This document shows positions 4,122-33,360 of a DNA stretch of 34,347 bases, piece by piece. The DNA comes from Deltaproteobacteria bacterium. GTDB taxonomy: Bacteria; Desulfobacterota; GWC2-55-46; UBA9637; GWC2-42-11. Position 1 is the stretch's first letter, and each line of letters opens with the position of its first letter. The position numbers were made by a program, and so were the translations under genes. The stretch spans positions 1-34,347 of the forward strand of contig JACRNI010000055.1 in the NCBI GenBank assembly GCA_016234925.1. Reading direction: 5' to 3'. The notes beneath the pieces were generated by a model. It was not told the origin of the DNA, did no database searches, and saw only the letters and a list, made by a program, of their open reading frames with translations.

Positions 4122-4240
4122 ATGGAGATACTATGAAAGATTATACCGATTATAAAGGCTGATTACACAGATTAAGGCAAAATAGTAGTTTTTAATCTGT
4201 GTAATCGTTTTTTTTAAAAATCTGTGTAATCAATTTCTTC
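4122..4240 (+). repeat. GATTACA-type interspersed repeat, copy 1 (upstream of rpoD)
   Basis: ggagatactatgaaagattataccgattataaaggctgattacacagattaaggcaaaatagtagtttttaatctgtgtaatcg...aatctgtgtaatcaatttcttc; other copies at 19222 and 33241. Confidence 0.85.
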
Positions 4241-4255
4241 ATGGGAGGTTAAACC

Positions 4256-5776
4256 TTGGCAAAGGCAAAGGCGAAAGAAGTTTCAGCAAATAGCGCTGAC
4301 CTTCAAAAATTGATAGATACAGGCAAGGAACGGGGATTTCTTACCTATGACGAAATAAATGATGCGCTGCCTCAAGAAGGTTTTTCTGTTGAGGACATGG
4401 ATAATTTTTTAGAAAGTCTCGGCGAAATGGGTGTGGATGTGGTTGATACAGTAGAAGGCGTCAGGCCTACAGAAGAGGCGGAGGTTCCAGAAGAAAAAGA
4501 AGAAACATGGAAGGCGGAACGCGTTGACGACCCTGTCAAGATATACATGAGGGAGATGGGCTCTGTATCACTTCTTAAAAGAGAGGAGGAGGTAGTTTTT
4601 GCAAAGGCAATTGAAGAGGGCAGGACAGAGTTAAAGAGGCTTATATTGAATACTACTATAGCGGCCAGAGAGGTTGTAAGAATTGCTGACAGGGTAAAGA
4701 GTGAGAAGTCGTCTCTAAGGGAACTGACTGAAGAGGTTGAAGACATTAACCAGTATGATGAAGGTTATGTTGAAGATATGCTTGCAACAGTTGAAAAGGT
4801 CAAAAGGAGAAAGAGGGAAGGCGCATATAAACTGCTCAAAGAAATGCCGCTCAGTCCTACCCTGATAGACCGCATTATAAAAAGGATAACAAGGATTGAA
4901 AGATTTGTGGCAAGAGAAGAGCGGAAAAGGGGGGTAAGAAAGGCTGAAAGGGCAAAAAAGAGGATAAGAAAGATACTCAGGAAACTTGAGATAAAGAGGG
5001 ATGAATTAAAAACGCTTTCCATTGAGGTTGCAAGACTTGACCGCGAGGTGAGAAAGGCAAAAAAAGAACTTGTTGAGGCGAACTTAAGGCTTGTTGTGAG
5101 CATTGCAAAGCGGTATGTGAACCTTGGCCTAAAGTTTTCTGATTTAATTCAGGAAGGCAATATCGGGCTGATGAAGGCAGTTGATAAATTTGACTATAAA
5201 AAAGGTTTTAAATTTTCAACATATGCCACATGGTGGATAAGGCAGGCGATTACCCGCGCAATTGCAGACCACGGCAGGACAATCAGGATACCTGTTCATA
5301 TGATAGAGACCATAAACAGGCTATTGCAGACATCCCGCCAATTATTAAAGGAACTTGGCAGAGAGCCGTATCCGGACGAAATCGCAGAGAGGATGGACCT
5401 GCCTGTTTCAAAGGTCAGGAGAATTTTAAGACTGATGAAGCAGACATTGTCGCTGGAAACGCCGATTGGCGACGATGAGGAGAGTTCGCTCGGAGATTTT
5501 ATAGCAGACGACAAATCGCCTTCCCCTGCTGACGCTGTAATTGAAAGCGACCTTTCAGAGCAGACCAAGAAGGTTCTTTCCACGCTTACGCAAAGGGAAG
5601 AAAAGGTCTTGAGGATGCGCTTCGGCATAGGGGAAAGGCAGGACTATACGCTGGAAGAGGTTGGGAAGGTATTGGGTGTTACAAGAGAAAGGATCCGCCA
5701 GATAGAGGCAAAGGCTATAAGAAGGCTACGCCATCCAAGCAGGGTAAAGATACTTAAAGGTTTCAGCGAAGAATGA
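4256..5776 (+). CDS. rpoD: RNA polymerase primary sigma factor (sigma-70)
   Basis: [93 protein letters not shown]...[35 protein letters not shown] start after GGGAGG. Confidence 0.97.
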
Positions 5777-5900
5777 TACGAACGCAATAAATGTCTTTAT
5801 ACTGTGTTGGACTCCTCGTAAAATCCTCAACATACTACAAAAGTATGTCTGCGGTTTTCCTCGTCGTCCGCCTTGTCTAAAGCCATTTCTTCCGTTCATA
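5777..5900. repeat. About 124-bp palindromic element, copy A, starting directly after the rpoD stop
   Basis: TACGAACGCAATAAATG ... CATTTCTTCCGTTCATA imperfect arms; interior nearly identical to the copy at 6831-6954. Confidence 0.85.
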
Positions 5901-5999
5901 TATGGCTGAAGGTTTAAAAAGTTTTTCACCTATGCCATCGTATGGTGTCAATTTATTTAATCCCGTTTGTATTAACAGCAGACTGGAAAATAGGAACTT

Positions 6000-6830
6000 A
6001 TGAAAAAACCAATCGGCATATTTGATTCAGGCATAGGCGGGCTAACTGTTTTAAAGGAGATAATGAGGGTATTGCCGCAGGAGGATACTATATATCTTGG
6101 GGATACTGCAAGGGTTCCTTATGGCGCAAAGTCTCCTGACACTGTAGTCCGCTATTCTTTAGAAAATGCAAGATTTCTTTTGAAATTTGACATAAAGGCG
6201 CTTGTGGTTGCATGCAACACAGCATCTGCATATGCGCTTTCAAGGCTTTCAGCAGAGATACCTGTTCCTGTTATAGGCGTGATAATGCCGGGCGCAAAAA
6301 AGGCGGTGTCTGTCACAAAAAATAAAAAAATCGGCGTAATCGGAACTGACGGCACAATAAAAAGCAGGATATATCTAAATACAATAAAGACAATAGCCCC
6401 GGATGCGTCTGTATTCAGCAAGGCATGCCCTTTATTCGTCCCCCTTGCTGAAGAGGGATGGATAGATAATGATGTCGCTTTCTTGACAGCGGATAAATAT
6501 TTGTCAGAACTTAAAGACCAAGGCATAGACACATTAGTTTTAGGCTGCACGCACTATCCGATTTTAAAAGATATAATCAGCCGTGTTATTGGCAGCAGTG
6601 TAACGCTTATAGACTCCGGACAGGAGACAGCGCTGGAGGCGGCAAAGGTATTGCAGGATAAAAACATTTTAAACGCAAACCCGCAGGCACAGCCTTTCCG
6701 TAAATTTTTCGTTACAGATTCCCCTGAAAGGTTTATTCAGGTTGGAGAACTCTTTCTCGGCACAAGTTTTAACAACAATGTTGACAAGGTGGATGTAATG
6801 CAATATACGCTCTTAAATCTTGCAAGTTAA
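6000..6830 (+). CDS. murI: Glutamate racemase
   Basis: PIGIFDSGIGGLTVLKEIMRVLP, YLGDTARVPYG, VVACNTASA, LVLGCTHYPIL. Confidence 0.96.
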   Translation: MKKPIGIFDSGIGGLTVLKEIMRVLPQEDTIYLGDTARVPYGAKSPDTVVRYSLENARFLLKFDIKALVVACNTASAYALSRLSAEIPVPVIGVIMPGAKKAVSVTKNKKIGVIGTDGTIKSRIYLNTIKTIAPDASVFSKACPLFVPLAEEGWIDNDVAFLTADKYLSELKDQGIDTLVLGCTHYPILKDIISRVIGSSVTLIDSGQETALEAAKVLQDKNILNANPQAQPFRKFFVTDSPERFIQVGELFLGTSFNNNVDKVDVMQYTLLNLAS

Positions 6831-6954
6831 TACGAAAGCAATAAATGTCTTTATACTGTGTTGGACTCCTCGGAAAATCCTCAACATACTATAAAAGTAT
6901 GCCTGCGGTTTTCCTCGTCGTCCGCCTTGTCTAAAGCCATTTATTGCTTTCGTA
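6831..6954. repeat. About 124-bp palindromic element, copy B, starting directly after the murI stop
   Basis: 17-bp perfect terminal inverted repeats TACGAAAGCAATAAATG (6831-6847) / CATTTATTGCTTTCGTA (6938-6954); inner hairpin catac-tataaaa-gtatg. Confidence 0.9.
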
Positions 6955-7012
6955 TGTTGTCAATAGATTATTTAATGCGCTTGTATTGATTTGCAGCCTT
7001 TCGGACACAACA

Positions 7013-18500: not shown

Positions 18501-19217
18501 ATGAAAAGGCCTTTACATTGGCAGGATTTATATGAATTGGGCAAGAATGCCTTTGAAGGTAAAAGATATAATGAGGCGCAAAGATACTTTGAAGAACTGA
18601 TTAAAGAAAAGGCAAATTTTGCAGATGCATATAATTTCCTTGGCTTCATATATCATTTTAACGGCAAAACCAATGAGGCAATAGGATTTTTCAAAAAGGC
18701 TATTGAGATAAATCCGAGATATACAGAGGCATCGCTTAACCTTGCAGTTGTCTATAATGAGATTCAAGAATTTGAAAAGGCGAATGAGATTTATGCAATG
18801 GCAAAGGATGCCTCAAAACAAGGCGCAACATCCTACCTTGACCCTTATGCCAAGGGCAAACTCGCCAACATGCACGTAGAGATAGGGGCTATATATCATG
18901 AAATGGGTTTTTACAAAGAGGCTCAAGATGAGTATGAAAAGGCGATTCGCTTAAGACCAGAGTTTGTTGATATAAGAACCAGCCTTGGAATTATCTACAG
19001 GGATATGGGGGATTTTGCAGGCGCAATAAAAGAATTTGAAGAAGCGTTAAGTATAAAGCCGGAGTATCTGCCTGCAAAATTAAACATCGGCATAACGTAT
19101 TACAATATGGGACAATTGGAAGATGCAAAAAAGGCATGGATGGAAGTCCTAAAACACAATCCAAATGATAAAAAAGCAATGATGTATCTTAACCTGCTGG
19201 AGAGGTCAAAAAAATAA
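18501..19217 (+). CDS. Tetratricopeptide repeat protein
   Basis: Repeated TPR consensus (YNFLGFIYHFNGKTNEAIGFFKKAIEINPRY etc.). Confidence 0.85.
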   Translation: MKRPLHWQDLYELGKNAFEGKRYNEAQRYFEELIKEKANFADAYNFLGFIYHFNGKTNEAIGFFKKAIEINPRYTEASLNLAVVYNEIQEFEKANEIYAMAKDASKQGATSYLDPYAKGKLANMHVEIGAIYHEMGFYKEAQDEYEKAIRLRPEFVDIRTSLGIIYRDMGDFAGAIKEFEEALSIKPEYLPAKLNIGITYYNMGQLEDAKKAWMEVLKHNPNDKKAMMYLNLLERSKK

Positions 19218-19221
19218 AGAA

Positions 19222-19340
19222 AGGAGATGATATGAAAGATTACACCGATTATAAAGGCAGATTACACGGATTAAAACAAATAGTAGTCTTAAATCTGCGT
19301 AATCGTATTTTAAAAATCTGTGTAATCAATTTATTCTAAA
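19222..19340 (+). repeat. GATTACA-type interspersed repeat, copy 2
   Basis: ggagatgatatgaaagattacaccgattataaaggcagattacacggattaaaacaaatagtagtcttaaatctgcgtaatcg...aatctgtgtaatcaattt. Confidence 0.85.
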
Positions 19341-19355
19341 GAAAGGATGATAAAT

Positions 19356-19589
19356 ATGAATAAGATTATTAGCAGCGAGTTATTAGAAAGACTGCTCAAG
19401 GAAAATTTTGAATTCAAAAAGGCGTATGATTTGCATAATGATTATGAAGAAAAGGTTGCGCAGATGGACAAAAGAGCCCATCTTAATGCCAATGAAGAGA
19501 TTGAAAGAAAGAGATTACAAAAGATGAAACTGGCGCAAAAAGATAAGATGGAGGAGATGGTTTTAAAGTACGGAGAGGCGAGAGGTTGA
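19356..19589 (+). CDS. Small DUF465 (YdcH-like) protein
   Basis: LLKENFEFKKAYDLHNDYEEKVAQMDKR...ERKRLQKMKLAQKDKMEEMVLKY; ATG 19356 preferred over 19347 on SD spacing. Confidence 0.65.
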   Translation: MNKIISSELLERLLKENFEFKKAYDLHNDYEEKVAQMDKRAHLNANEEIERKRLQKMKLAQKDKMEEMVLKYGEARG

Positions 19590-19596
19590 AGAGCAA

Positions 19597-19650
19597 GTAG
19601 CGTTGCCCTTTATGGGCAACGAATTCGTCGGGGATAAACCCCGACGCTAC
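19597..19650. repeat. 54-bp REP-like element with outer stem and two internal hairpins, copy 1
   Basis: gtagcgttgccctttatgggcaacgaattcgtcggggataaaccccgacgctac; identical copy at 29890-29943. Confidence 0.93.
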
Positions 19651-19658
19651 GATTTCTT

Positions 19659-21311
19659 ATGCGAAGCGACAGGATTAAAAAAGGACTTGAAAGGGTTCCG
19701 CACAGGGCGCTCCTTTATGCAACAGGTCTCACAAAAGAGGAGATGGCAAAGCCTTTTATAGGCGTTGCAACATCCTTTAACGACCTTGTGCCGGGGCATA
19801 TCGGGATGAGAACCCTTGAGAGATTTATTGAAAAGGGCGTTCATACAGGCGGAGGGTATTCGTTTTTCTTCGGCGTGCCTGCGATATGCGACGGCATTGC
19901 AATGGGGCATACAGGCATGCATTACAGTCTGCCCAGCAGAGAACTCATTGCAGACATGATTGAGTCTGTTGCAATGGCTCATGCCTTGGATGGACTTGTT
20001 CTTTTGACAAACTGCGACAAAATCACCCCCGGAATGCTTATGGCTGCTGCAAGGCTTGACATTCCTTCTATAGTTGTTACAGCAGGACCAATGCATACAG
20101 GCATGTATCAGATGAAGAGACGCTCATTTGTCCGCGATACATATGAGGCAATCGGCAGATTTAAGAATAAAGAAATTACTCAGGATGAACTTTCAGACCT
20201 TGAGTTCTGCGCATGTCCGGGCGGAGGCTCGTGTCAGGGTATGTACACCGCAAACACGATGGCATGCGTAACCGAAGCCCTCGGCATGTCTCTTATTGGC
20301 TGTGCGACCGGTCTTGAAGGCTCTGCTGAAAAAAGAAGGACTGCGTTTGATTCAGGCGTCAGGATAGTTGAGATGGTGAAGGATGATTTGACGCCGAGAA
20401 AGATCATGACAAAGAATGCGTTTGAGAATGCCATAAGGGTTGACATGGCTCTTGGCGGTTCAACAAACACAGCGCTCCATATTCCAGCGATTGCCCATGA
20501 AACAGGCATTGACTTGTCTTTGGAAATCTTTGATAAAATAAGCAGGGAGACTCCTAATATTGTTAAGTTAGAACCGGCAGGCGACCATTTTATGGAGGAT
20601 TTGGAATACGCTGGCGGGATACCTGCTGTTATGAATAGGTTAAAAAATCTTTTAAAAGACAATATAACTGTCTCCCAAAAAACAATAAAAGGTATTGCTG
20701 AAAATGCAAAAATAAATGACAGCGATGTAATAAGAGAATTAAAAAACGCATATTATAAGGAAGGCGGCATTGCGGTTTTAAAAGGAAACCTTGCGCCTAA
20801 CGGCTGTGTTATAAAACAGACTGCTGTAAGCGATAAAATGAAACATTTTATCGGAAAGGCAAGGTGTTTTGATTCAGAAGAGTCTGCAATGCAGGTAATA
20901 CTTGCAGGAAAAATCAAGGCAGGGGATGTGGTTGTTATTAGATATGAGGGGCCCAAAGGCGGGCCCGGCATGAGGGAGATGCTTGCGCCGACAGCAACAA
21001 TTACAGGTATGGGTATGGCGGACAAGGTTGCGCTCATTACAGACGGCAGATTTTCCGGCGGCACAAGGGGACCTTGCATAGGCCACATATCACCGGAGGC
21101 AATGGAAGGCGGGACAATTGCGCTTATTAAAGATGGAGATGAGATAGAGATAGATATTCCGAACAGGAGTTTAGAGTTAAGAGTTAAGAGTGAGGAGTTA
21201 AAGAAAAGAAAAGAAAACTGGAAACCGCCGGAGCCAAAGATTAAAAAGGGCTGGCTTGCAAGATATGCAAAGGTTGTAACATCGGCGAATACAGGGGCTG
21301 TAGTAAAATGA
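19659..21311 (+). CDS. ilvD: Dihydroxy-acid dehydratase
   Basis: [106 protein letters not shown]. Confidence 0.97.
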
Positions 21312-21312
21312 G
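21269..21312 (+). repeat. Direct repeat, left copy (native ilvD 3' end)
   Basis: aaaggttgtaacatcggcgaatacaggggctgtagtaaaatgag; 39/44 match by eye to 22033-22076. Confidence 0.9.
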
Positions 21313-21333
21313 GTAAGGGACTCAAGACAGTTT

Positions 21334-21645
21334 ATGGTAACGCAAGAACAAATAAATCAGGTAATTAGCGCAATTATCAACGGATACCATCCTAAAAAGA
21401 TAATCCTGTTCGGCTCGTATGCTTGCGGAAGCCCTACAAGGGATAGCGATATAGACCTGCTCATAATCAAGGATGATGAGCAGCCGCCAGTTAAGAGAAA
21501 CCGCACTGTGCGGAGTTATCTAAAAAACTTTACAATACCTGTAGATGTTATTGTTAAGAGCAGTAATGAGTTTGAAATTTATAAGGACGTTATAGGAACT
21601 GTTGTATACGCAGCCAATAAATATGGCAAAGTCCTTTATGGTTAA
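21334..21645 (+). CDS. Minimal nucleotidyltransferase (MNT) domain protein
   Basis: KKIILFGSYACGSPTRDSDIDLLIIKD, NT-fold GSxAxGxxRxxSDxDL-type motif; adjoins a HEPN gene. Confidence 0.88.
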   Translation: MVTQEQINQVISAIINGYHPKKIILFGSYACGSPTRDSDIDLLIIKDDEQPPVKRNRTVRSYLKNFTIPVDVIVKSSNEFEIYKDVIGTVVYAANKYGKVLYG

Positions 21646-22075
21646 AAAAGAAGTTATAGATGGGTTGGTTAGCAAATGGATCGGAATAGCGGAAAGGGAC
21701 TTACTGACTGCGAAACAAGGACTAGAAGCGAAAACCGTCATAACAGACACGGTATGCTTTCACTGCCAACAGGCAGTGGAGAAGTATTTAAAGGCTTTTC
21801 TGGTTAAGCATCAGGTTGAGTTTATGAAGACACACAGCATCATGACGGTATTAAATCTTTGCTCGACTGTAGATAAATCGTTTAGCGAGGAGTTGTCCGA
21901 GGTCGATTACTTGACGGATTATGCCGTTGAGATTCGTTACCCTGACGAGTGGTATGAACCAACGATTGAAGAAGCCATGCAAGCGTTTCAGATGGTATTG
22001 AAGGTTAAAGGCTTTGTCGTTGATAAACTAAAAAAGGCTGTAACATCGGCGAATACTGGGGCAATAGTAAAGTGA
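21638..22075 (+). CDS. HEPN domain protein carrying an IlvD-like C-terminal tail
   Basis: AERDLLTAKQGLEAK...FHCQQAVEKYLKAFLVKHQVEFMKTHSI...DYAVEIRYPDEWYEPT; C-term [12 protein letters not shown]. Start uncertain (TTG 21602, ATG 21623 or ATG 21638). Confidence 0.85.
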   Translation: MVKKEVIDGLVSKWIGIAERDLLTAKQGLEAKTVITDTVCFHCQQAVEKYLKAFLVKHQVEFMKTHSIMTVLNLCSTVDKSFSEELSEVDYLTDYAVEIRYPDEWYEPTIEEAMQAFQMVLKVKGFVVDKLKKAVTSANTGAIVK

Positions 22076-22076
22076 G
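22033..22076 (+). repeat. Direct repeat, right copy (ilvD 3' end duplicated at the end of the HEPN gene)
   Basis: aaaggctgtaacatcggcgaatactggggcaatagtaaagtgag. Confidence 0.9.
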
Positions 22077-22092
22077 ATGTGAGAAGTGAGAG

Positions 22093-23091
22093 GTGAGAGG
22101 GAAAACACAAAACCTAATTCTACTTCCAATTATAGTTTTTTTTATCATTGCCATTCACAGAAATTCTGCATGGAATGATGCCCTGAATCTATGGCAGGAT
22201 GCTGTAAATAAATCTCCAAAAAAGGCAAGGGTGCATACAAATTTAGGGGCAGTTTATTCAGGCAAAGGGCTGTATGATGATGCGATAAGAGAATATAAAA
22301 TAGCGCTTGGGTTGAATCCGAATTATATGGAGACCCATACAAATCTTGGCGTTGCATATGCTGAAAAGAGGATGATGGGAGAGGCATTAGCCGAACTCAA
22401 AGCAGCAATAAGTTTAAAACCTGATTCATCAGAGGCGCATGACAATCTTGGTTTTGCATATTTGAGGATGGGCAAATTTGAAAACGCTATGAAAGAATTT
22501 CAAATTGCCATTGAATTAAATCCTGAAAATTATGCTGCATATTATAATTATGGTCTTGCATTAAGGGATTCTGGCAGGCTTGATGAGGCTGTTGACAAAT
22601 TAAAATTATCCATATATATAAAACCTGATGAACCCAAATCCCATTTTGACCTCGGCGTTGTTTATTATACAAAGGGTCTGCTGGATGATGCAGTAAGGGA
22701 ATATAAAACAGCGCTTGCGCTAAATCCAAATTCAATTGATGCGCGCAACAATCTTGGCGCAGCATATCTTAAAAAAGGTTTGTATGATGATGCTGAAAAA
22801 GAATTTAAAAAGGTTATTGAAATAAGACCCGACTTTGCGTCAGTTTATGGAAATCTTGGTGTTGTTTATGGCAGCAAGGGTATGCTGGACGAGGCAATTA
22901 AGGTTTTTAAAAAGGCAGTTGAACTTGAACCAAAATCAGCAGGCAATTATATAAATCTTGGATTTGCATATAAGCAAAAGGGCATGATAAAAGAGACGAT
23001 TGAAGAATATAAAAAGGCGCTGATGCTAGACCCTGATAATATTGAGGCAAAACAAGGGTTGGATGAAATTGCAAAGGAGAATGTCAATTGA
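22093..23091 (+). CDS. TPR protein with a single N-terminal TM segment; possibly a 5'-truncated membrane/TPR gene
   Basis: [53 protein letters not shown] followed by many TPRs; resembles the join between the last TM helix and TPR array in larger multi-TM TPR proteins. Confidence 0.75.
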
Positions 23092-24770
23092 AGATAAACG
23101 GTGCGCAGATATTTATTGAATCCTTATTAAAAGAAGGGGTTGATACAATCTTTGGTTATCCGGGCGGCGCTGTCATTCCGATATATGATGCGCTTTACAA
23201 TGACACGCGCTTAAGACATATACTTGTCCGTCATGAGCAGGGCGCTGTTCATATGGCAGACGGCTATGCAAGGGCAACAGGCAGACCCGGCGTTGTGCTT
23301 GTAACATCAGGTCCCGGCGCAACAAATACTGTAACAGGCATTGCAACAGCATATATGGATTCAATCCCGATTATTGTTTTTACAGGACAGGTGCCTACAG
23401 CGCTTATCGGCAATGATGCGTTTCAAGAGGCTGATATTGTCGGCATAACAAGACCATGCACAAAACATAATTATCTTGTAAAGGATGTCAGGGATATTGC
23501 AAGGGTTATAAAAGAGGCATTTCATATTGCAGCAACAGGCAGACCCGGCCCTGTGCTTGTTGATTTACCAAAGGATATTTTAAATGCTGCAACAGAATTC
23601 AAATATCCAGAAAAGATTGAACTCCGAAGTTATCAGCCGACATATGAAGGACATCCCGGGCAGATAAAAAGGGCGGTTGATACAATCCTTGCTTCAAAAA
23701 GGCCAGTGATATATGCGGGTGGCGGCGTGCTTTTATCAAATGCGTCAAAAGAACTAAAATCCCTTGCAGAGAAATTGAACATACCTGTTACATTGACGCT
23801 CATGGGTCTTGGCGGTTTCCCGGGGACGCATCCGCTGTTTCTCGGAATGCTAGGCATGCACGGCACATATACGGCAAATATGTCTGTAACAAATACAGAC
23901 TGCCTAATTGCAATCGGCTCAAGGTTTGATGACAGGGTTACAGGAAAGATTGATGAATTTGCGCCATATGCAAAGGTCATACATATTGATATTGACCCGA
24001 CATCCATAAGCAAAAATGTCCGTGTTGATGTGCCGATTGTCGGCGATGTTAAGCATGTATTAAAGGATATGCTGAAAGAATTGGATAATGCAAAACATAG
24101 CAAAGATGTCTTGAAAGATTGGCACGAGCAGATTGCAAAATGGAAAGACACGCACAAACTTTCTTACAAACAAAATGACAAGATAAAACCGCAGCATGTC
24201 ATAGAAAAACTCTATGAACTTACAAAGGGCAGCGCGATTATCACAACAGAGGTCGGGCAGAATCAGATGTGGGCAGCGCAGTTTTATCTTTATGACAGCC
24301 CGCGCCAGTTTTTGACATCAGGCGGGCTTGGCACAATGGGCTACGGGTTTCCAGCGGCAATAGGCGCGCAGGTTGCATTTCCTGACAAGACAGTTATTGA
24401 TATTGCAGGGGACGGCAGCATCCAGATGAACATACAGGAACTTGCAACAGCGGTTCAGCATAAACTGCCTGTAAAGGTTGCAATACTTAATAACAGATTT
24501 TTAGGCATGGTGCGGCAGTGGCAGGAATTTTTCTATGAAAAGCGGTATTCATATACATGCATGGATGCTGCGCCTGATTTTGTAAAACTCGCAGAGGCTT
24601 ATGGCGCAGTTGGACTTCGCGCAGAAAAACCAGAAGAGGTCGTGCCTGTTATAAAAGAGGCGCTTAAGGTTAATAAACCTGTGCTTATGGATTTCAGGAT
24701 TGACAGGGAAGAGGATGTTTATCCAATGGTGCCGGCAGGACAGCCTTTGAATAAGATGCTTTTGGTATAG
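23088..24770 (+). CDS. ilvB: Acetolactate synthase large subunit
   Basis: [97 protein letters not shown] start. Confidence 0.97.
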
Positions 24771-24782
24771 GGGAGGTTCTTG

Positions 24783-25271
24783 ATGCGTCATACAATATCC
24801 ATTTTAGTTGATAATGAGTTCGGTGTATTGAGCCGAGTTGCAGGGCTTTTTTCCGGCAGGGGATTTAATATTGAAAGCCTGTGCGTTGCAGAGACCCTTG
24901 ACCCAAAGGTCTCAAGGATGACGATAGTAACAAGGGGTGATGACCAGATAATTGAGCAAATTACAAAGCAGTTGAATAAACTTGTAAATATTATAAAGGT
25001 CTATGATTTGACAGCAGAGGAGCATATTGAGCGGGAACTTGCAATGATAAAGGTGAATGTGAGCGAAAAGGACAGGGCTGAGGTATTGAGCATAGTTGAC
25101 ATATTCAGGGCAAAGATTGTTGATGTTAGTCCAAAGACATATACAATTGAGATGACAGGCGATAATGAAAAGGTAAATGCAATGGTTGAGCTTTTAAAGC
25201 CGTTCGGCATAAAAGAGATTGCAAAGACAGGGAAAATCGCAATTGCAAGAAGCCCGAAAGCGGTAAAATAA
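24783..25271 (+). CDS. ilvN: Acetolactate synthase small subunit
   Basis: RHTISILVDNEFGVLSRVAGLFSGRGFNIESLCVAETLDPKVSRMTIVTRGDD ACT domain. Confidence 0.96.
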   Translation: MRHTISILVDNEFGVLSRVAGLFSGRGFNIESLCVAETLDPKVSRMTIVTRGDDQIIEQITKQLNKLVNIIKVYDLTAEEHIERELAMIKVNVSEKDRAEVLSIVDIFRAKIVDVSPKTYTIEMTGDNEKVNAMVELLKPFGIKEIAKTGKIAIARSPKAVK

Positions 25272-25300: not shown

Positions 25301-26003
25301 ATGACAGATAGAGAAATTGAAGAAGTGTATCAAATCATCAAAGATTACCATGAGAAATATTTAAAAAAGCATGGGGTTAAGTTACCAAAGTTAAAAGATG
25401 CTGATGGGAAATATACCAGAAACGCGCTTGTTCTGATTTATCTAGCAAAATTTTATCCTAGCACTGTTTTAGTAACCAAACAAGATTTAACCGCATTTAT
25501 TAGGAAGTTTTATCCTGAAACAAATGATGTCCAGCAAGCAAGACATTTAGGGGCGCAGTCAGGATGGTTTATTTCAGCAGGCGGCAGGGATAATGTCCAT
25601 GTTAAGAAAATTGGGGAGTATCGGCTGATTACATTGGAAAGACCTTATCCCAACTTTAAAGGTCATAGAATTGAAACAACAGGCAATTGGGAGAATATAA
25701 AGCAGCAATATGGAAACAGATGTGCTACTTGCGGTTCAGAGGAAAATAAGAAAAATATACATTATCCTAATACAATAACAAAACTGCAAAAATCACACAT
25801 AGACCCTTTCAAATCATTAATTGAAGGCAATATCATTCCGCAATGCCAAAAATGTAACAGGGCATACAGAAATTTTTGGGTATTTGATGAAAGAGGAAGG
25901 GTTAGGGGAATAGCAAAACCGGCAGTAATTAAAAAATGCAGCAAAGACATAAAATGGAAAATCTACAAAATCTTATACAATGAATTTAAAGGAACAAATC
26001 CAA

Positions 26004-26011
<8 letters not shown>
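25301..26011 (+). CDS. HNH-type nuclease, probable type II restriction endonuclease
   Basis: CATC...QKSHIDPFKSLIEGNIIPQCQKCNRAYRNFWVFDERGRV, HNH-like with two CxxC zinc pairs; overlaps a DNA methyltransferase gene. Confidence 0.72.
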
Positions 26012-28083
<2,072 letters not shown>

Positions 28084-29833: not shown

Positions 29834-29889
29834 AAAGACTAAAACTCAAATCTCAAAATGCAAAACTTTAGAAATGGTTCTAGGGTTCA

Positions 29890-29943
29890 GTAGCGTTGCC
29901 CTTTATGGGCAACGAATTCGTCGGGGATAAACCCCGACGCTAC
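29890..29943. repeat. 54-bp REP-like element, copy 2
   Basis: Identical to 19597-19650, same orientation. Confidence 0.93.
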
Positions 29944-32187: not shown

Positions 32188-33255
32188 ATGAACATCAAAA
32201 TAAGCGAAAATCTAAAAGTCTGGAGTGAGGATATTATTTATTCACTCTTCATCTTGATTGCCTTCTGGCTCCTTGCAAGGTTTGCAAGATATTTTTTTGC
32301 AAAGTGGGTTTCAAGATTTACAAAGCACACTGAAACAGAACTGGATGATAAGATTATTGATGCTGTAAAATCGCCGATTTACTACATCATATTGCTTTTT
32401 GGCATTTCTTTGGCAATTTCTGTCCTTCCGCTTCCACCAAAGGTAATCTCTATAAGCGATGGCATTGTTTATGTCTTTGGCGTGTCCGTCGGCATATTTA
32501 TATCTTATAGGGTTGTGAATGTTTTTCTTGAATGGTACACGCATAATGTAGCGTTAAAGACAGACAGCCAGATAGAAAGGGAATTCCTTCCGCTTATTGA
32601 AAAAGTAATATTCGTTTTTATACTAATCACAGGTTTAATTGTTGTTTTAAAACATTTTAATTATGATATACTTTCTCTTGTAACAGCGCTCGGCGTTGCG
32701 TCTATGGCAATAGGTCTTGCTGCAAAGGACACGCTTGCAAACATGATTTCGGGATTTACCCTTATGCTTGACAGGCCGTTCAGGGTTGGCGACAGGATTC
32801 AACTTGCAGGCGGTGAAACAGGGGATGTTATGGAGATAGGGCTGAGATGCACAAGGATAAGGACTATGGAAAGCAATATCCTTGTTGTGCCGAATACGGA
32901 ATTGGTAAACACAAAGGTCATAAATCAGTGCTTTCCTGATAATGTGATGAGGGCAAAGGCAAAGGTCGGCATTGCATACAATAGCGATGTTGAAAAGGCA
33001 AAAAGGATAATGCTTGATATTGCAAACAACCATCCTAAAGTTGTAAAATTCCCGCCGCCAATAGCGCTCTTTACAGAATTTGCAGAGTCCTGTCTTGTGA
33101 TACAGATGTTTTACTGGGTGGATAACTGGTTTGAGATTGGTATTGTTCAGGACGAAATAAATTGCAGAATAAAAAAGAGATTTGAGGACGAAGGCATAGA
33201 GATACCGTTTCCCATAAGGACTATTTATTTGAAAAAAGGGGAAGAGATGATATGA
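32188..33255 (+). CDS. MscS family mechanosensitive channel
   Basis: LGVASMAIGLAAKDTLANMISGFTLMLDRPFRVGDRIQL...GDVMEIGLRCTRIRTMESNILVVPNTELVNTKVIN. Confidence 0.94.
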   Translation: MNIKISENLKVWSEDIIYSLFILIAFWLLARFARYFFAKWVSRFTKHTETELDDKIIDAVKSPIYYIILLFGISLAISVLPLPPKVISISDGIVYVFGVSVGIFISYRVVNVFLEWYTHNVALKTDSQIEREFLPLIEKVIFVFILITGLIVVLKHFNYDILSLVTALGVASMAIGLAAKDTLANMISGFTLMLDRPFRVGDRIQLAGGETGDVMEIGLRCTRIRTMESNILVVPNTELVNTKVINQCFPDNVMRAKAKVGIAYNSDVEKAKRIMLDIANNHPKVVKFPPPIALFTEFAESCLVIQMFYWVDNWFEIGIVQDEINCRIKKRFEDEGIEIPFPIRTIYLKKGEEMI

Positions 33256-33360
33256 AAGATTACACCGATTATAAAGGCAGATTACGCAGATTAAGGCAAA
33301 ATAGCAGTTTTTAATCTGTGTAATCGTATTCCCAAAATCTGTGTAATCAATTTCTTTCAT
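33241..33360 (+). repeat. GATTACA-type interspersed repeat, copy 3 (overlaps mscS stop, precedes MCP gene)
   Basis: gaagagatgatatgaaagattacaccgattataaaggcagattacgcagattaaggcaaaatagcagtttttaatctgtgtaatcgtattcccaaaatctgtgtaatcaatttctttc. Confidence 0.85.

Follow-up and report, generated by a model that had tools for sequence, protein, structure and literature searches.

Insertion with long target duplication very probably brought a promoterless module of about 720 bp, consisting of a minimal nucleotidyltransferase (MNT) gene and a HEPN gene, into the 3' end of ilvD. The locus lies in the window, i.e. the whole 34,347-nucleotide stretch of DNA analysed here (Deltaproteobacteria bacterium, contig JACRNI010000055.1), and its features are summarized in Table 1. 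ilvD is whole after the insertion, and the HEPN gene reads into the second copy of the duplicated gene end. Only the MNT and HEPN genes lie between the two copies, the module extending from 21 bp past copy 1 up to copy 2, and the start of the HEPN gene overlaps the end of the MNT gene by 8 bp. The interval 21200-22250 yielded no promoter-like site, and 19000-24000 no structured RNA.

Table 1. Features of the ilvD-MNT-HEPN locus (positions in the window).
Feature	Position	Strand	Basis
ilvD (dihydroxy-acid dehydratase, 550 aa), target gene, intact	19659..21311	+	TIGR00110, 778 bits, over cut-off; Pfam
Target-duplication copy 1	21269..21312	+	39/44 identical to copy 2
MNT gene (minimal nucleotidyltransferase, 103 aa), GSX10DXD motif intact	21334..21645	+	PF01909 (NTP_transf_2), 2.7e-10
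HEPN gene, 145 aa	21638..22075	+	PF05168, 8.9e-27 over residues 12-126
Target-duplication copy 2, joined to native downstream flank of ilvD	22033..22076	+	Repeat; continuity with G005 empty site
Captured tail: 13 ilvD-derived codons and HEPN stop	22034..22075	+	Frame shared with ilvD end; G006 homology stops at 22034; TSAN in 0/80
Native right flank (spacer, TPR-protein gene), shared with the G005 ilvD locus	22077..23091	+	Alignment with L004; TPR families

The 44-nt direct repeat at the ilvD and HEPN stops is genuine. Its copies are 89% identical and spaced by 764, and recomputation returned the same coordinates and identity count as an earlier reading of this DNA made from the letters alone (the sequence-only reading). 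Copy 1 comprises the final 14 ilvD codons (the first one incomplete), the stop codon and one base beyond it (TGAG). Both copies are translated in one frame, as the end of IlvD at the first and as the end of HEPN at the second. With 95 bp of the ilvD end as query against the 2.4-Mb genome, the second copy was recovered at E = 7e-10 and no third copy was seen, so the repeat is not a product of chance; a genome scan with a 20-bp pattern and at most two mismatches matched only the two known copies.

The state before insertion can be read in a relative, G005, which belongs to the same taxonomic order as the window genome and has an IlvD that is 90% identical. Its single ilvD end continues via TGAG directly into ATGTGAGAG...GGGAAAACACAAAACCTAATTCT and a TPR gene, which is the DNA that follows the second repeat copy in the window. 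Once the insert and one copy are removed, the alignment of the window to G005 continues through the junction, broken by a single 7-bp gap in a short repeat immediately beyond it. A single ilvD end joined to the same right flank indicates that MNT/HEPN entered as an insertion, and the proposal that the pair (about 720 bp) came into the ilvD 3' end with target duplication is thereby supported. The sequence-only reading had likewise proposed that an MNT/HEPN segment entered this gene end and left direct repeats; it had suggested looking for relatives with a one-copy empty site, which G005 provides, and had named two ilvD 3' ends in a relative lacking the pair as an observation that would speak against it. 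G005 and five further relatives have one ilvD end each; in the five, what comes next is ilvB itself or other genes. An empty site that is clear and matches on both flanks was found for ilvD only; at mtnA (locus L180, see below) the right flank has no match in relatives, so no empty site is established there.

The G005 alignment places the old left-hand junction at the ilvD-side copy and the old right-hand junction at the HEPN-side copy, since the latter runs on into DNA native to the region downstream of ilvD. Of the two copies, the one on the ilvD side is slightly nearer to all relatives compared, as expected if that copy alone stayed under IlvD selection. The two copies are parts of one target duplication, and 44 bp is too short to single out either as the "original". 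The earlier description of the ilvD copy as native and the HEPN copy as acquired was thus too simple: it stands for the HEPN tail, which derives from ilvD, and fails for the HEPN-side copy, where the right-hand junction of the old site is kept.

The nearest module, in G006, is homologous to the window over 701 bp of DNA at 85% identity, from the ATG of the MNT gene to the point where the repeat begins. The motif TSAN is present in none of the 80 homologous loci, whose tails are short and varied. The window HEPN thus took 13 residues and its stop codon from the duplicated ilvD end, and the capture of the IlvD C-terminus suggested from the letters alone is supported; no homologue with an ilvD-like ending away from ilvD, which would have pointed the other way, occurred among the 80. 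The locus shows how a toxin-like protein may gain the tail of a metabolic enzyme in one step. At another locus (L185), the HEPN reading frame ends in about 36 residues of a ferredoxin-like protein, a looser second case of tail capture in which the HEPN half is shortened and joined through extra DNA.

The MNT and HEPN assignments of the sequence-only reading hold against Pfam, and by family membership the pair is predicted to be a toxin-antitoxin system. As in the type VII HepT/MntA systems, MNT precedes HEPN, the two genes overlap and the GSX10DXD motif is intact. Unlike those systems, the HEPN protein belongs to PF05168 with an aspartate in place of the motif histidine, and the MNT protein matches the NCBIfam MntA equivalog weakly and below threshold (32.4 bits, cut-off 60). 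The Rx4-6H motif region of HEPN reads RYPDEW, D replacing H, and a conserved histidine lies elsewhere (FHCQ). PF05168 HEPN proteins often have aspartate for the motif histidine and a conserved histidine at another place (PMC3710099), a pattern that the window protein seems to fit from its residues.

Bracketed MNT/HEPN modules were also found elsewhere. Two sets of loci, mostly from metagenome assemblies, were compared with module-sized control intervals on the same contigs for direct repeats abutting the module: MNT loci of 395 genomes of the phylum, with about 5.5 kb fetched on each side, and loci from a scan of GTDB genomes with the window HEPN. Tight brackets were present at 12 of 92 usable loci in the first set against 30 of 5705 control intervals (0.53%), and at 9 of 74 loci in the second against 14 of 3677 (0.38%). 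With strict two-copy repeats (at least 40 bp, multi-copy repeats excluded), 15 of the 166 MNT/HEPN loci were bracketed against 0.32 expected. The argument for enrichment rests on effect size, and exact P values are not to be relied on because control intervals overlap and loci are not fully independent. The remaining loci, about 87%, have no detectable bracket and may be old, intergenic or of another arrival route.

Accidental bracketing by dispersed repeats, tandem duplications or assembly errors is a very improbable explanation of these figures. Repeats with no relation to the bracket do occur between genes of the window itself (a 126-bp pair at 5776/6830 and two identical 55-bp copies at 19596/29889), and some brackets elsewhere are of this nature; L147 and L143 were rejected as examples for their multi-copy repeats, and L167 for a repeat that is a tandem MNT-family paralogue. 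Against such an origin, brackets occur at 12-13% of loci and at 0.4-0.5% of same-contig controls, the strict count exceeds its expectation of 0.3 many times over, most copies have diverged by several per cent, which misassembled duplicates would not, and coding ends are rebuilt in frame.

Most of the bracketing repeats are ends of protein genes, and their lengths range from about 30 to about 300 bp. The 3' ends used are those of ilvD (44 bp), gapA (twice), an M50 peptidase gene, mtnA, an integrase-like gene (L210), a ferredoxin-like protein gene, an M48/TPR protein gene (177 bp), lepA (145 bp), a DUF1549/1553 protein gene (43 bp), a class-III aminotransferase gene (146 bp) and, in a Methanosarcinaceae archaeon, a UDP-sugar dehydrogenase-like gene named by eye (298 bp). 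The 5' ends are those of porG, a lolA-like gene, a flippase gene and pyrD (by eye). Module and host gene are co-oriented in 15 of 16 cases as classified by eye (binomial P = 0.0005). PIN and ParE loci are enriched for brackets as well, more weakly than MNT/HEPN (6 of 70 and 5 of 50, respectively, where controls give about 1%); several of the PIN and ParE repeats are not clear gene ends, so the pattern can be carried over to these families only tentatively. Other cassettes are bracketed by ends of genes other than ilvD, and the process is not specific to ilvD, as the use of gapA, lepA, mtnA, pyrD, porG and others and the bracketing of PIN and ParE loci show.

Integrative elements are known to use gene 3' ends, with att sites in tRNA, tmRNA and protein genes. 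The ilvD locus resembles them in that the host gene end is duplicated on both sides and the host gene is intact, and the sequence-only reading had called the arrangement att-like. Site-specific integration would make the repeats attL and attR of a recombinase of the tyrosine or serine family that has been lost or acts in trans, with MNT/HEPN as the remnant, and it would account for the preference for 3' ends of conserved genes, for an integrase 3' end as the target at L210 and for the two modules bracketed by tRNA-Pro gene fragments (L137 and L159). These two are nearer to ordinary integrase attachment sites; tRNA-end targeting was rejected as a general rule, being seen in L137 and L159 only. 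Unlike such elements, the present cases have repeats of variable length and use 5' as well as 3' ends, and no recombinase is encoded between the ilvD repeat copies, an interval taken up by the module. When 17 repeats were compared pairwise, no shared core emerged, and only the two gapA ends matched beyond short chance words. Terminal inverted repeats are also lacking (the best inverted match between the module ends is 7 bp), and the duplication is long and variable, unlike the short, fixed duplications of transposons. The lack of a recombinase, of inverted repeats and of a common core argues against both transposition and site-specific integration. Relatives of the module were found neither in phage records nor in IMG/VR, and three distant matches lie on plasmids. 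Site-specific integration is thus an unlikely origin, and the att-like reading was not borne out.

The closest relatives of the module (85% DNA identity) lie behind gapA in G006 and G009, which belong to different genera; between these two, the modules are 98.9% and the gapA ends 97.7% identical. In G006, the last 102 bp of gapA are repeated after HEPN at 96% identity, ahead of pgk; G003 and G004 have a single gapA end ahead of pgk. G007, of another genus, carries a different HEPN-MNT pair behind gapA, with reversed gene order and 26% identity to the window HEPN, and its contig stops inside a second gapA end of 76 bp. In G006, the spacer after the first gapA copy resembles those of G005 and G010, and the spacer after the second resembles that of G009. 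The second copy is preceded by 46 bp that are related to the M23-like gene behind gapA in G005. By these comparisons, the G006 bracket is a mosaic of two haplotypes and not as a simple copy of one template, and its second gapA copy probably arrived on foreign DNA. The near-identity of G006 and G009 across genera suggests exchange through the flanks. By the same route, a complete ilvD-MNT-HEPN-ilvD-tail arrangement could have been made elsewhere and imported by recombination in ilvD and its downstream flank, and the 11% difference between the ilvD repeat copies is within the between-species range. Such replacement is improbable as the whole explanation for the window: in no other genome searched does the module stand behind ilvD, and import would account for spread and not for the origin of the duplication, so it adds to target duplication at ilvD without substituting for it.

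The most likely mechanism of insertion with long target duplication is that illegitimate or microhomology-mediated recombination joins the incoming DNA at two positions offset from one another; at some loci, such as gapA of G006, a second target haplotype would arrive on the foreign DNA. Joins that delete part of the host gene would be lost to selection, and joins that duplicate the overlap would survive, an intact gene being rebuilt on one side. Purging of the former and retention of the latter would explain both the gene-end positions and the variable repeat lengths. The module would be transcribed from the host operon, as the co-orientation and the lack of a promoter-like site suggest, and toxin-antitoxin addiction may aid its persistence. 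Host tails can change as well: in G019 (L180, G019:C113), the mtnA beside the insertion has an altered C-terminus (...GLFAAQPSSCSCL), and a detached mtnA copy retains the usual-looking end LKGLKAL.

Insertion with long target duplication has been described for restriction-modification genes (Nobusato et al., 2000, Gene 259:99; Furuta et al., 2010, NAR 38:2428; as related in PMC3874152, PMC3031569 and PMC1643837). As those accounts relate it, the likeness lies in a small addiction-type unit, the lack of a known mobile element and long, variable target duplications, there on the order of 100 bp. The cases here differ in that the inserted gene, and sometimes the host gene, gains a new C-terminus from the duplication, in their strong co-orientation with the target gene and in their cargo; with MNT/HEPN in place of restriction-modification genes, they form a variant by cargo and not a plain member. 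The known process fits in all respects but cargo. MNT-HEPN is the most widespread mobile two-gene module of its class, and the text of the survey that reports this makes no mention of direct repeats or target duplication (PMC2701414). A review of toxin-antitoxin and restriction-modification systems describes long target duplications for the latter only (PMC3874152). The present results suggest that MNT/HEPN "addiction" units spread in a manner so far described for restriction-modification genes, and they bear on how small toxin-antitoxin modules, whose mobility has been quantified in surveys (PMC2701414), move without a transposase. The bracket serves as a readable scar, which marks insertions and reveals their target and orientation. 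It is conceivable, though somewhat short of probable, that such insertion is a general and recurrent route of spread for transposase-free toxin-antitoxin modules (MNT/HEPN, PIN, ParE and others) in bacteria and archaea, at the ends of core genes and co-directional with transcription, repeatedly making new C-termini where toxin or host genes become fused to duplicated ends.

Other gene pairs were observed near ilv genes or within brackets. In G002, of another genus, the ilvD-ilvB interval holds a DUF4258-like/YgiT-like pair by eye (L005, 3163-3710), and IlvD ends in VVKA, not VVK; the ilvD-ilvB interval seems to be a hot spot. In the window, a 236-aa protein with HNH-like cysteine pairs and no Pfam match lies beside an N6/N4 DNA methylase (25301-27035), between an ilvN-like gene (24780-25271) and ilvC; the two may be restriction-modification genes that entered the same ilv cluster, and no bracketing repeat of at least 30 bp was seen around them. 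At L168 (G072:C104, 1070-3216), a HEPN/MNT pair and a DUF433-like/DUF5615-like pair lie together between repeats of 116 and 49 bp, with a DUF2283-like gene nearby (all named by eye).

The window also contains several intergenic repeats. The 126-bp pair (5776-5901 and 6830-6955, 94% identical) flanks a glutamate-racemase-like gene; it was rejected as a gene-end duplication, being an intergenic element that looks like a dispersed repeat. The 55-bp element (19596-19650 and 29889-29943) contains two short hairpins (CGTTGCCC..GGGCAACG and CGTCGGGG..CCCCGACG), and an 87-bp intergenic repeat is present in three copies (4125-4211, 19224-19310 and 33244-33330).
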